DNA from: Bacillus rhizoplanae | GTDB lineage: Bacteria > Bacillota > Bacilli > Bacillales > Bacillaceae_G | DNA length: 64,000 bases | Assembly (NCBI RefSeq): GCF_917563915.1 | Contig: NZ_CAKJTI010000003.1 | Coordinates: 124,001 to 188,000, forward strand | Direction of reading: 5' to 3' | In this document: positions 4,323 through 54,165 of the stretch, in pieces | How the letters are laid out: each line of letters starts with the position of its first letter | How positions within the stretch are numbered: position 1 is the stretch's first letter | Position numbers and translations under genes: made by a program | The notes under the pieces: model-generated | Seen by the model: only the letters and a program-made list of their open reading frames with translations | The model's database searches: none | What the model was told of the DNA's origin: nothing

Positions 4323-4844
4323 GTGAAGAAAAATAGGCTGTTATTTCGTGTAATCATTTTGCTCATATTAGGAGGGGCGGTAGGGTTTACGTTATATCAA
4401 AACTTTTTTGTTGATAAGGAGAAAGCACAAGTTGGAAAGGTAGCGCCAAACTTTGTTGCTACTGATTTAGAAGGTAAAAAAATTACGTTAAAAGATTTAA
4501 AAGGAAAAGGTGTTTTCTTAAATTTTTGGGGAACATGGTGTGGACCTTGTGAGAAAGAAATGCCATATATGAATGAATTATATCCGAAATATAAAGAAAA
4601 AGGTGTCGAAATAGTGGCATTAGATGCAGATGAAACAGAACTTGCTGTGAAAAACTTTGTGAATCAATATGGACTGAAATTTCCAGTAGCAATTGATAAA
4701 GGACAAGAAATTTTAAATACATATGATGTAGGACCGTTACCAACAACGTTTTTAATTGATAAGGACGGAAAGATTGTCGAAAAAATTACAGGTACACAAT
4801 CTAAAGAACAAATGGAAGAATATTTAAAGAAAATTACTCCATAA
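4323..4844 (+). CDS. resA: Thiol-disulfide oxidoreductase ResA
   Basis: ResA is a membrane-anchored thioredoxin-like protein facing the outside of the cell. It reduces the haem-binding cysteines of apocytochrome c so that ResB/ResC can attach haem. The 173 aa protein has an uncleaved N-terminal anchor (about 6-24) and a thioredoxin/TlpA fold with active site WCGPCEKE near residues 72-79, followed by the cis-proline region [13 protein letters not shown]. Start is GTG with AGAGGGGAG eight bases upstream. It heads resABC-resDE, whose c-type cytochrome clients include QcrC at 53.2 kb. Confidence 0.95.
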
Positions 4845-4943
4845 ATGAGAAATGTATAGAAAATATATTTGTACAGGTAGTATTGGTCAATTGAGGTGCT
4901 GTTTGTAATTTCAGTACCTATCAGTAAAATTCTGATTATTCAG

Positions 4944-4957
4944 TGAAAACGTTATGA
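4944..4957. promoter_or_regulatory. Possible cre-like site between resA and resB
   Basis: TGAAAACGTTATGA matches the catabolite-responsive element consensus TGWAANCGNTNWCA at all but one position. It lies in the 143 bp resA-resB gap. CcpA control here is only an inference. Confidence 0.3.
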
Positions 4958-4987
4958 AACATAGATACATAGAGAAAAGAAACGGCG

Positions 4988-6619
4988 GTGAGGGATTTGG
5001 AACAAATAAAGTGTGTTTGCGGTCATGTAAACCCAATTGGTACAATCTTTTGCGAAGCTTGCGGAAAGCCTTTTGAAGATGAGAAAGATACAAAATTATT
5101 AGATATGCGATATGAAGGAAGTGCACGGCGGTCTCTTACACATACAAAAACAGTTGTGGATAAAATTTGGAGTTTTTTCTCTTCCGTAAAAGTTGGAGTA
5201 TGGCTCATTGTTATTACACTTATCGCATCTGGAGTGGGGACGATTTTTCCACAAGAAATGTATCTCCCACCAAATGTTACGCCGGGAGAATACTATGAAC
5301 AGCAGTATGGTTTTCTTGGAAAATTGTATTACCAATTAGGATTTGACAATCTATATAGCTCTTGGTGGTATATGATGTTAATTGCATCTATCGGGGTTTC
5401 TCTCGTTATATGTAGTTTAGACCGAGTTATTCCTTTGTATAAAGCGCTGAAAAAACAAGGCGTAACAAGGAATCCGAGTTTTTTAAAGAGGCAGCGGTTA
5501 TACGGAGTAGCACTAGCAACAAAAGAAGAAATTGAATGTGTTAAGGGAAACTTGAAAAAGAAAAAATACAATGTACGAGTGGAAAATGATAACATTCTAG
5601 CAGAAAAAGGACGTTTTTCTCGTTGGGGTCCATATGTAAATCATATTGGTCTTATTATTTTCTTATTTGGAACGATGCTGCGTTTTGTCCCTGGTATGTA
5701 TGTAGATGAATCGCTTTGGCTTCGTGAAGGTGAAATGAAAGAAATCCCAGGAACAGACGGAAAGTATTATTTGAAGAATGAAAAATTCATTAAAGAAGTC
5801 TATGATAAAGGAAAAGAAAATGAAGTCTTTGATGATGCGATTGATCGAGTTGGGAATAAGATAATTCCGAAAAACTATCAAACAAATGCTGTATTATATA
5901 AAGCAGTTGGAAAAAATATTGCTGGTCAAAAGCCAAAGCTTGAGAAAGTGAAAGAGTATAACATTCGAGTGAATGAACCTCTTAAATTTGATAACTATGC
6001 TCTTTATCAAGTAGATTTTAAAGAGGGCGAATTTAGTAAAATGTCTTTTGCTTTACAAAAGAAAGAAAGTGGCCAAAAATGGGGCCCAATTACAGTTGAT
6101 CTAGCAAATCCAAAAGAAACATACGATTTAGGAAATGGATACTCTCTGCAGTTGCTAAGTTATTTTCCGGACTTTTACTTTGATGAAAGTGGAAAACCGA
6201 ATACAAAAACGAAGCTACCTAATAATCCAGCGTTTGTATTTAAAATGTTTACACCCGAAACACCAAATGGAGAAGTGAGCTTTGTTGGAATTCAACAAAA
6301 TATAGAGCCAGAAGGAAACAATTTATACAAAATGTCTTTTGCAGGTGTAGAAACGCGTAACGTTACAGCGCTTACTGTACGAAAAGATTTGACACTTTGG
6401 ATTATAGCTCTGGGAGGGTTTATTTTCATGGTCGGTGTTATTCAAGGTATGTATTGGAATCATCGACGTATTTGGATACAACGTGTTAACAATGAATGGT
6501 GGATTGCTGGGCATACAAATAAAAATTGGTATGGTTTGCGAAAAGAGATAGAAAAAGTCTTAGAAGGGACAAGCATTCCACAGCCAAATGATAAAGTCAA
6601 TGAGAAAAAAATTAGTTAA
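4988..6619 (+). CDS. resB: Cytochrome c biogenesis protein ResB with N-terminal zinc ribbon
   Basis: ResB (Ccs1 family) works with ResC as the system II haem export and cytochrome c ligation machine in the membrane. The 543 aa protein has transmembrane segments near 63-83, 124-145, 215-232 and 475-495, with a large external domain between the last two. It carries a short N-terminal zinc-ribbon-like module with two CxC/CxxC pairs ([18 protein letters not shown], about residues 9-26), absent from most ResB proteins. The start is ambiguous: GTG at 4988 is poorly preceded, whereas TTG at 4997 sits five bases after GGTGAGGG and may be the real start. It is followed closely by resC. Confidence 0.93.
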
Positions 6620-7838: not shown

Positions 7839-7996
7839 GATAAAGTGAAACTTCCATCAGTGGAGAGTTTTTTCATCTCCCACTGATGGTTAGTTGAACC
7901 AATCGGGCTTTTACGGGCAGTTATCCCCCACCTATCTTCCTCGCTTCTTTCTGAATCTTGAGGTGGGGGTCTTACTGCCCGTTAATGCGGGATAAA
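7839..7996. repeat. bcr1 repeat, full-length copy between resC and resD
   Basis: This copy runs from ATAAAGTGAAACTTCCATCAG to TTAATGCGGGATAAA. It contains the three typical inverted repeats: CATCAGTGG/CCACTGATG, GGTTAGTTGAACC, and ACGGGCAGT with ACTGCCCGT around the CCCCCACCT/AGGTGGGGG stem. The fragment TTAATGCGGGATAAA just before it (7830-7844) looks like the right end of a second, lost copy. Confidence 0.95.
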
Positions 7997-13530: not shown

Positions 13531-13553
13531 GATGTGGAAAATAGAATATCGGT

Positions 13554-13690
13554 CTATCTTCGGGGCAGGGTGAAAATCCCGACCGGCGGTGATGAACATG
13601 TATTTTTGTTCTAAGCCCGCGAGCCGTTAAGGCAGGATTTGGTGCGATTCCAAAGCCGACAGTACAGTCTGGATGGGAGAAGATGGAGGT
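13554..13690 (+). ncRNA. FMN riboswitch (RFN element)
   Basis: The conserved RFN blocks are all present in order: CTTCGGGGCAGGGTGAAA, TCCCGACCGGCGGTGAT, AGCCCGCGAGC, GGATTTGGTGCGATTCC, AAAGCCGACAGTACAGTC and GGATGGGAGAAG. It binds flavin mononucleotide and controls the downstream riboflavin transporter; a terminator follows it, so repression is probably by premature termination. Confidence 0.97.
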
Positions 13691-14445: not shown

Positions 14446-14479
14446 GCATCAGTGGAAGTTTTTCTGCTGATGTTTTTTT
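14446..14479 (+). terminator. Terminator of ribU
   Basis: GCATCAG/CTGATG stem and seven T. The stem resembles a bcr1 end (CATCAGTGGAAG), so the terminator may be made from repeat sequence. Confidence 0.7.
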
Positions 14480-14633
14480 ATCTCACATTAACGGGCAGTA
14501 AGACCCCCACTTCAAGATTGTGAGGAACTCGAAGAAGATAGGTGGGGGATAACTGCTGGCATACGCCCGATTGGTTCAACTAACCATCAGTGGGGGATGA
14601 AAAAAACCCCCACTGATGGAAGTTTCACTTTAT
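14477..14633. repeat. bcr1 repeat, full-length copy after ribU
   Basis: Runs from TTTATCTCACATTAACGGGCAGTAAG to GGAAGTTTCACTTTAT, with all three inverted repeats. The CCCCCACTGATGG arm pairs with CCATCAGTGGGGG. Confidence 0.95.
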
Positions 14634-23149: not shown

Positions 23150-23493
23150 CAGCGAAACGGGTAGATGAATTAGAGAAGCGAATTGTGGATTTAAAAAAGA
23201 GACTAGAAGAAAAAATAAACGAACAAAATCAGGCCTTTTAGATACTATGGGAAGTATTTCTCCCGCATTAACGGACAGTAAGCCCCCCACCTCAAGAGTG
23301 AGAGAGAAGCGAAGAAGATAGGTGGGGGATAACTGTCCGTAAAAGCCCGATTGGTTCAACTAACCATCAGTGGGGGATGAAAAAACCCCCACTGATGGAA
23401 GTTTCACTTTATCTCTCTGTTGTTTGGCGCATTATTAGACCAGTCATTGCGGCTACAATGGTATTAATTGCATTGCTTATGAGTTACATGAAT
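23146..23493 (+). pseudogene. Decayed coding fragments split by a bcr1 copy
   Basis: Positions 23146-23241 read as an open coiled-coil stretch (DPAKRVDELEKRIVDLKK, ending NQAF and a stop) with no start codon, because its 5' side is bcr1 sequence. Positions 23419-23493 read as a hydrophobic helix (WRIIRPVIAATMVLIALL, then MSYMNL), again without start or stop. A bcr1 copy lies between them. They may be two parts of one small coiled-coil membrane protein gene destroyed by repeat insertions, but they may also be unrelated. I do not recognise the parent family. Confidence 0.35.
23257..23412. repeat. bcr1 repeat, full-length copy with compensated stem
   Basis: Runs TCTCCCGCATTAACGGACAG to AAGTTTCACTTTAT. 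The outer stem is ACGGACAGT/ACTGTCCGT instead of the common ACGGGCAGT/ACTGCCCGT, a paired change. Confidence 0.95.
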
Positions 23494-39839: not shown

Positions 39840-39867
39840 GGAAAGCAGGAAACTGCTTTTCTTTTTT
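39840..39867 (+). terminator. Terminator of folE
   Basis: GAAAGCAG/CTGCTTTTC stem and seven T. Confidence 0.85.
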
Positions 39868-40020
39868 TATCCTGCTATTCGTGGGCAATAAGACCCCTCA
39901 TCTCAAGATTCAGAGAGAAGCGGAGAAGATAGGTGGGGAATAACTGCTGGCATGTGCCCGATTGGTTCAACTAACCATCAATGGGGGATGAAAAAAACCA
40001 CTGATAGAAGTTCCACTTTA
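39866..40020. repeat. bcr1 repeat, full-length copy between folE and hepS
   Basis: TTTATCCTGCTATTCGTGGGCAATAAG to GAAGTTCCACTTTA. It is the subtype with CTGCTGGCATGTGCCCGATTGG. It occupies the position where mtrB would be in B. subtilis. Confidence 0.93.
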
Positions 40021-40156
40021 TACCAATATAACGGCCAGGATAAGGGGAAATAAAGATCAATTTTTACTTTGTTTCGTTTCGTCAAGTTTTCTTTATAGAA
40101 AAATGAATGAATGTGTTATAATAGGTTTTATGAATTAGAAAACAAGGGTGATTTTT

Positions 40157-50751: not shown

Positions 50752-50795
50752 ACTTATCTGTGAAAAGTAATTATGAAAATTTTTAGACTATTGCA

Positions 50796-50834
50796 AAGAA
50801 AAACCATCTTTTATAGATGGTTTTTCTTTTTTTA
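50796..50834 (+). terminator. Terminator of ypiA-reoY
   Basis: GAAAAACCATC/GATGGTTTTTC stem with T-rich tail. Confidence 0.9.
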
Positions 50835-50859
50835 CCTTTATCTGTATGGTTTAATAGAA

Positions 50860-51335
50860 ATAGAGTGAAACTTTCTTTATGATTAGGTCAACTACCCACC
50901 GCTTAAATGCTAACGCGTTTTGAAGTGAGGGCTTGTAAAAAGCTCTGGTTGCCTAGCCGTAGTCCTATGTGGACTACGTTCGTAGGCTGCATACCCAAGA
51001 ATGATTCCCTAGTTCTTGGCTCTATTGTGGCTCTGTAACAGTTCTGATTGGGAAGGAACGGTCAACCACAAGCCTTCTTTCATAAGAAGTTGCTAACACC
51101 TACAAACATTGGCGAAGGGAAACTACATCCTTATATGGATGGGCAAAACATGTGTGTATTTGCCAGGAATTACTTTAGGCTGTGCCTAACCGAATTTCAT
51201 CCCCACCTTACCGCTGGGCTATTGCCCTTCACATGTTTGAAAATGGGGACTTCTTTCAGAAATAATTTAAATCAATTAAGCTCTTATGGGTAAGTAGTAT
51301 GGGGGTGAGGTCATACTGTCCATTAGAGTGGGAGT
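50860..51335. repeat. bcr1 repeat interrupted by another element
   Basis: The left part (50860-50886: ATAGAGTGAAACTTTC, then ATGATTAG) and right part (51267-51335: TTAAATCAATTAAGCTCTTATGGG, then GGGGGTGAGGTCATACTGTCCATTAGAGTGGGAGTAA) match the two sides of a decayed bcr1 copy, with the junction at the GGTTAGTTGAACCAATCGGG region. Confidence 0.75.
50887..51266 (-). mobile_element. Non-autonomous IS200/IS605-like element with omegaRNA-like end
   Basis: This 380 bp insert in bcr1 is more GC-rich than its surroundings and highly structured. On the minus strand it ends AAGCGGTGGGTAGTTGAC after the hairpin CCCTCACTTCAAAA/TTTAAGCGGTGGG with loop CGCGTTAGCA. This form is typical of right ends of TnpB-encoding IS200/IS605 elements, where the reRNA/omegaRNA scaffold ends. 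Further hairpins are GTAGTCC/GGACTAC (50959-50977) and CCAAGAA/TTCTTGG (50995-51019). A decayed TnpB C-terminus may remain (minus strand from 51083, MKEGLWLTV). The opposite end lies next to TTTAA (minus strand 51271-51267), which resembles target motifs of such elements. There is no transposase. Confidence 0.6.
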
Positions 51336-51359
51336 AAGGGAAAAAGGGGGCTATTAAGT

Positions 51360-53999: not shown

Positions 54000-54165
54000 T
54001 TTATCCCGCATTAACGGGCAGTAAGACCCCCACCTCAAGATTCAGAGAAAAGCGAAGAAGACACTGCCCGTAAAAGCCCGATTGGTTCAACTAACCATCA
54101 GTGGGGGATGAAGCCCCCCACTGATGGAAGTTTCACTTTATCCCGCTATTCACAGACTGTAAGAT
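54000..54165. repeat. bcr1 repeat plus start of a second copy
   Basis: TTTATCCCGCATTAACGGGCAG to AAGTTTCACTTTAT (54000-54141), with a 13 bp deletion on the right side of the second stem. TATCCCGCTATTCACAGACTGTAAGATA right after it looks like a further left end. Confidence 0.9.

Follow-up and report, generated by a model that had tools for sequence, protein, structure and literature searches.

Identity and extent of the element

Between ypiB and ypiF, Bacillus rhizoplanae carries a block of DNA lodged in a decayed bcr1 repeat, and this locus raises the question of what the block is, which strand encodes its RNA, and whether that RNA could still guide a nuclease. We analyzed it within a stretch of 64,000 nt (NZ_CAKJTI010000003.1, positions 124,001 to 188,000, forward strand), referred to here as the window. 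The initial annotation had described a GC-richer block of 380 bp at 50887 to 51266 and had read it as an IS200/IS605-type remnant bearing an orphan omega RNA of the TnpB class on the minus strand. Its extent is borne out by the bcr1 junctions, which place both ends precisely, and the composition agrees as well (45% G+C in the element versus 37% in the window). The element is present as a single copy within the window.

From the features collected in Table 1, the element is very probably a non-autonomous mini-element of the IS200/IS605 superfamily, namely a deleted IscB element with a plus-strand RNA, inserted in bcr1. This grading covers identity in those three respects; activity stands outside it. 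The element is a further example of an already known kind and does not constitute a new system. A literature search of titles and abstract openings returned no description of this element among the matches listed.

TABLE 1 Features of the element and its flanks, in window coordinates
Feature	Position	Strand	Basis
Terminator-like hairpin between ypiB and the element	50795..50829	+	
Left part of the interrupted, decayed bcr1	50857..50886	+	Shuffle-tested alignment
Putative 5' guide, 16 nt of bcr1 flank	50871..50886	+	Directly 5' of the scaffold; length assumed
IscB-type omega RNA scaffold (HEARO)	50887..51126	+	cmscan; 87% identity to L055 4056-4297; 55/67 pairs
Weakened palindrome, other transposase end, overlapping the omega RNA start	50893..50934	-	Folding compared with L055; L002 alignment
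iscB start stub, seven codons (MCVFARN)	51150..51170	+	By-eye alignment with L067 and L055
Deletion junction and iscB stop remnant TACTTTAG	51171..51178	+	By eye against L055 and L069
Right end of the iscB element, with hairpin; homologous to the IS605 end that lies upstream of tnpA	51173..51266	-	84% identity to L002; 84% to L058
TTAAA, transposase target (TTTAA on minus) and candidate target-adjacent motif	51267..51271	+	Same beside the right ends of L055, L058, and L002, by eye
Right part of the interrupted bcr1, end approximate	51267..51340	+	Shuffle-tested alignment

An IscB-type omega RNA on the plus strand

Searching Rfam with cmscan identifies a match to the full HEARO model (RF02033, positions 1 to 211) on the plus strand, scoring 91.2 bits against a curated gathering cut-off of 83 bits. 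HEARO is the only family over its cut-off when both strands of the element are scanned. The covariance-model search that the initial annotation proposed does find an omega RNA, but one of the IscB class, on the plus strand, with nothing over the cut-off on the minus strand; neither the TnpB class nor the minus-strand orientation is upheld. Folding of 50867 to 51286 as RNA gives a z score of -3.9 for the plus strand (0 of 100 shuffles as stable) and -2.9 for the minus strand (1 of 100). HEARO ORFs and IscB are described as one family in PMC9755519, which gives RF02033 hits in 65% of the 5' untranslated regions of that study's HEARO nucleases.

The closest relative among the matches listed lies at locus L055 of genome G049, with 87% identity over 240 bases of the RNA; the search covered 397 genomes of the order, two candidates being scored per genome, and G049 gave the sole strong RNA match among those listed. 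Standard pairing is retained at 55 of the 67 model pairs in the window RNA and at 58 in L055, three of the others involving a gap in each case. Relative to L055, the window RNA has lost four pairs, gained one, and kept one through changes on both sides. Two iscB-linked RNAs, L001 (141.7 bits) and L055 (106.7 bits), outscore the window RNA, whereas two iscB-linked RNAs of genome G399 (86.1 and 85.6 bits) fall below it, so that the score alone is no sign of decay.

Locus L055 reads, in order, omega RNA, an inserted ORF (4454-5683, which we take to be an IS110-type transposase), an open iscB frame, a right end homologous to that of the window element, and TTAAA. The frame matches NCBIfam guided_IscB with 377 bits (cut-off, 175) and the Pfam families RRXRR and HNH. 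An Anoxybacillus plasmid carries a further relative, with 74% identity over the first 176 bases, immediately upstream of an annotated iscB. Relatives of the window RNA lie upstream of iscB and on the same strand in L001, L055, L067, and L069. Where the initial annotation had proposed looking for full-length relatives with tnpB, the relative at L055 carries iscB. The window copy shares with HEARO/IscB omega RNAs the full-length sequence and structure, with GTCAACTACCC at the element end, and differs in lacking a downstream iscB: directly 3' of the RNA there is only a seven-codon stub, followed by the right end, which makes this an orphan omega RNA, as the initial annotation had supposed. Its statement that no tnpB is present also agrees with our search, in which one tnpA, one tnpB, and one iscB query gave no match in the window at an E value of 0.1.

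HEARO is uncommon. A match is found in 4 of 120 genomes of the order and exceeds the cut-off in 3, with search filters that lose weak matches, and 2 of the 19 genomes of the family around genome G068 contain one.

Internal deletion of iscB

The stub 3' of the window RNA (ATG TGT GTA TTT GCC AGG AAT) aligns by eye, over this short stretch, with the starts of the iscB-linked frames LRVFVRN (L067), LRVFVMN (L069), and MLVFVQN (L055). After it comes TACTTTAGGCTGTGCCTAACCG, whose transition to the right end matches, by eye, that of the stop region in L055 and L069: the L055 frame ends in CCTTTAG, followed by the same right end, and L069 likewise has TTGTAGGCT. Given the start stub and the continuity with the stop region, an internal deletion took out iscB from codon 8 nearly to the stop and kept the RNA and both ends.

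Transposon ends shared with a tnpA-tnpB element

Both ends of the element resemble those of the tnpA-tnpB IS605 element at L002, as judged by alignment, and the IS200/IS605-type assignment stands. For the right end, the counterpart is the end upstream of tnpA, aligned with a score of 122 (no shuffle control), minus-strand TTTAA included. The left end (50887 to 50936) aligns with the stretch downstream of tnpB with a score of 41, compared with a shuffle maximum of 26 (0 of 500 reaching it). The TnpB-type right end proposed by the initial annotation is therefore a real resemblance, explained by the ends that the element has in common with a tnpA-tnpB element; the IscB RNA, however, starts at that point and runs the opposite way. 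The IscB RNA begins where a TnpB RNA would end, and the transposase ends are common to both. A TnpB omega RNA ending at 50887 was considered and rejected: Rfam, which does not hold every TnpB RNA, gave no minus-strand match over the cut-off, and the one TnpB query was unmatched.

The minus-strand hairpin with its CGCGTTAGCA loop and GTGGGTAGTTGAC end is present as the initial annotation had described, but when folded as single-stranded DNA it does not surpass shuffles (-3.3 kcal/mol; z = 0.13), compared with -9.3 kcal/mol and a z score of -3.88 for the same hairpin in L055. For the right-end hairpin folded as DNA, the z score is -0.91, with 36 of 200 shuffles as good.

Among nine related right ends compared by eye, four (the window, L055, L058, and L002) have TTAAA immediately outside. 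L059, L060, and L062, all in G049, instead have TTTAT, TTAAT, and TTTAT on the minus strand, and the boundary could not be placed by eye in L001 and L069. In L058, one extra base separates the motif from the hairpin. Non-autonomous IS200/IS605 elements are a known class that uses TTTAA-type targets and inserts without duplication. The window element has these properties, with two IS605-like ends, no duplication, and a TTTAA target, and differs from that class in carrying a guide RNA.

The element interrupts a decayed bcr1 repeat

The junctions read TTAG, element, TTAAATCAAT, and at seven bcr1 sites of the window TTAG is followed directly by TTGAACCAAT. There is no duplication at the TTAG and TTAAA junctions, and bcr1 has TTGAA where the flank has TTAAA. 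The TTTAA that the initial annotation saw abutting this end is thus in place, on the minus strand. Its proposal of an insertion in a decayed bcr1 copy is likewise supported, since both flanks and the rejoined site score above nearly all dinucleotide shuffles when five window copies serve as reference: 30 for the left flank (1 of 500 shuffles reaching it), 32 for the right flank (1 of 500), and 37 for the joined empty site (2 of 500). The ypiB-ypiF gap measures 608 bp in the window versus 104 to 195 bp in the four best flank matches (L025 to L028), but it ranges from 93 to 646 bp at 25 measurable loci of 26 others, which makes gap length alone weak proof of insertion. The best flank identity to genomes of the order, among the matches listed, is 82%.

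PMC6542083 describes the bcr1 repeat as confined to the B. cereus group, and bcr repeats of this group are characterized in PMC3446304 as short and intergenic, some with conserved structure. The element has these traits in common with bcr1-bcr18; the difference is that bcr1 is here the repeat that received it. Of the 19 genomes in the family around G068, 6 have bcr1 matches, two of them many (41 and 25).

The window contains at least 12 full or partial bcr1 segments, e.g., at 7839-7996, 14477-14633, 23257-23413, 39860-40021, and 54000-54142. These start with ATAAAG and several end with GATAAA, giving terminal TTTAT, the same letters that lie outside some of the IS605 ends in G049. An FMN riboswitch was also detected in the window, at 13552-13688 (117.6 bits).

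Guide, expression, and state of the copy

In IscB systems the guide is located 5' of the scaffold, and the guide of the window RNA would therefore be bcr1 flank. It is the same flank that the initial annotation had named as guide, now directly 5' of a plus-strand scaffold. For IsrB, a relative of IscB, PMC9581776 places the target-adjacent motif 3' of the target. The putative guide is CTTTCTTTATGATTAG, with TTAAA as its motif. Compared with the seven window sites of the form TTAG followed by TT(G/A)AA, the bcr1 sites that this comparison covered, the guide has 6, 7, 7, 7, 8, 8, and 8 mismatches out of 16; with TT(A/G)AA alongside, the best site in the window has 5. Guidance to bcr1 today, as the initial annotation had envisaged, is thus unsupported within the window, and for the seven sites compared we reject it. 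When the element inserted, the decay of that bcr1 copy may have been less advanced.

The nearest promoter-like site (50855 to 50883) would start transcription inside the element, and a search of the region for promoter-like sites revealed none placed to include the guide. PMC3446304 reports transcription of intergenic repeats in two B. cereus strains (84 of 165 and 62 of 155 copies), so that read-through into the element is possible. Given the weakened hairpin, the upstream terminator, and the lack of a guide-including promoter in that search, activity has probably been lost and the element is probably a fossil.

Comparable mini-elements and searches for further copies

Anoxybacillus tepidamans (G002) has five HEARO matches, of which L007 and L011 have iscB and L009, L013, and L015 lack it. 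In these three, which occupy sites with different flanks, an L007-type iscB passes, by eye, from its first eight codons (MVFVLDTN; MVFILDIN in L015) straight to its last ~22, and the junction is the same in all. Over about 245 bases they differ from L007 at 18 (L009), 35 (L013), and 45 (L015) positions, and their scores are 145, 121, and 109 bits, respectively, versus 158 bits for L007. The genome also contains two iscB frames without stops. Like the window element, these copies keep the omega RNA, the iscB start, and the end, with the coding region deleted. They differ in belonging to another IscB lineage, in their shared junction, three copies, and two accompanying iscB frames, and in having an outer flank other than TTAAA. 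They are the better case for a mobile omega-RNA mini-element. Standalone omega RNA loci have reportedly been described, by Altae-Tran in 2021, in Ktedonobacter racemifer, in many copies and with IscB in the same genome; they share with the window element an omega RNA lacking its own iscB, whereas only one copy of the window element is seen.

An exact pattern of both ends recovers the window copy and nothing in 100 window shuffles. The same pattern, which misses diverged copies, is found in 0 of 397 order genomes, 0 viral contigs, and 0 of 108 loci, and a search for a second copy in 19 family genomes gave partial matches only. In phages, blastn found no match at 1e-5; in viral contigs, words of 31 bases (left end), 20 bases (RNA), and 25 bases (right end) each gave zero matches. 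Two plasmid records matched by blastn, each at a single end, and the right flank had no plasmid match. Among the best 40 of 74 plasmid records for the IscB protein, none named a B. cereus group species. A pattern search of the genome collection returned two loci, both in Anoxybacillus.

Origin of the element and alternative explanations

We favor an origin in which an internal deletion in an iscB-bearing element spared the omega RNA, the start stub, and both ends, after which the Y1 transposase of an IS605-type element, acting in trans, would have inserted the product as single-stranded DNA into bcr1, beside TTCAA/TTTAA on the minus strand, as the ends and flanks suggest. Movement would then have followed the deletion. 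Against this explanation are the lack of a second copy in the searches described above, the four pairs lost and one gained relative to L055, the higher scores of the iscB-linked L055 and L001 RNAs, and the failure of either end hairpin to beat shuffles as DNA. The reverse order, in which an iscB element entered bcr1 whole and shed iscB there afterwards by plain decay, never moving as a mini-element, is a serious contender that we place somewhat short of an even chance: it fits the single copy in the window, with none elsewhere in the searches, and the weakened left hairpin, but it sits less easily with a clean deletion that kept the RNA and both ends, and with the same architecture at three A. 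tepidamans sites.

Other readings fare worse. That the RNA is an orphan TnpB omega RNA on the minus strand is scarcely credible; the similarity of the left end to the stretch downstream of tnpB in L002 speaks for it, but HEARO lies on the plus strand with nothing on the minus strand over the gathering score, the relatives precede iscB on the same strand, and the iscB start stub is on the plus strand. An active system in trans, with the orphan RNA expressed and guiding an IscB encoded elsewhere in the genome, seems distinctly unlikely: the RNA outscores the two iscB-linked G399 RNAs and many intergenic repeats are transcribed in the B. cereus strains of PMC3446304, but a terminator lies upstream, no promoter was seen placed to include the guide, and HEARO exceeds the cut-off in only 3 of the 120 order genomes. 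Slightly more doubtful still is a retained host element serving downstream genes, for example through a promoter-like site at 51237-51266 directed towards ypiF and qcr. This site at the right end is the best promoter-like match of the region (10/12), and five such sites were found where 1.8 were expected, but it is a consensus match only.

A plus-strand transcript initiated outside the element would carry the bcr1 flank as a 5' guide. For TnpB elements, PMC11870625 describes a guide that is a record of the flank and a motif identical to the target of the transposase, with the result that element-free DNA is cut. By analogy, an IscB supplied in trans could cut the element-free allele and so favor retention of the element, and a mini-element with an IscB RNA could use both IscB and TnpA in trans.

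The locus shows that, in a bcr1-containing genome, an IscB guide RNA can persist when its nuclease gene is gone. The annotation of the locus is corrected in class and strand. Together with the A. tepidamans copies, the locus suggests that iscB has been lost with RNA and ends kept more than once, and it opens the testable question of whether such RNAs parasitize IscB in trans. A broader idea, which we consider unlikely as it stands, is that of guide-only transposons: clean internal deletions would time and again strip IscB elements of the nuclease gene while sparing the omega RNA and ends, and a mobile guide rewritten at each new site would suffice to exploit IscB and TnpA in trans. If so, insertion into bcr1, a high-copy repeat, or into others like it would at one time have provided a guide against many places in the same genome.

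Further loci

Three other loci may be further mini-elements. L108 (G105:C1:1153376-1153606) has a HEARO match of 93.7 bits; its genome gave no IscB match at 1e-10, and no right end was seen. L078 (G400) has a low HEARO score of 48 bits, under the cut-off, and may represent another iscB deletion; L079 is also under the cut-off and runs into N. In G001, an iscB start, according to the IscB profile, lies beside 8 of 14 HEARO matches, and the other six reach a contig end less than 280 bases from the RNA start. At L074 (G400), a locus with no iscB match within it, an omega RNA adjoins a Y1 transposase frame at 1181-1747 (Pfam, 2.4e-23; profile positions 11 to 121 of 121).
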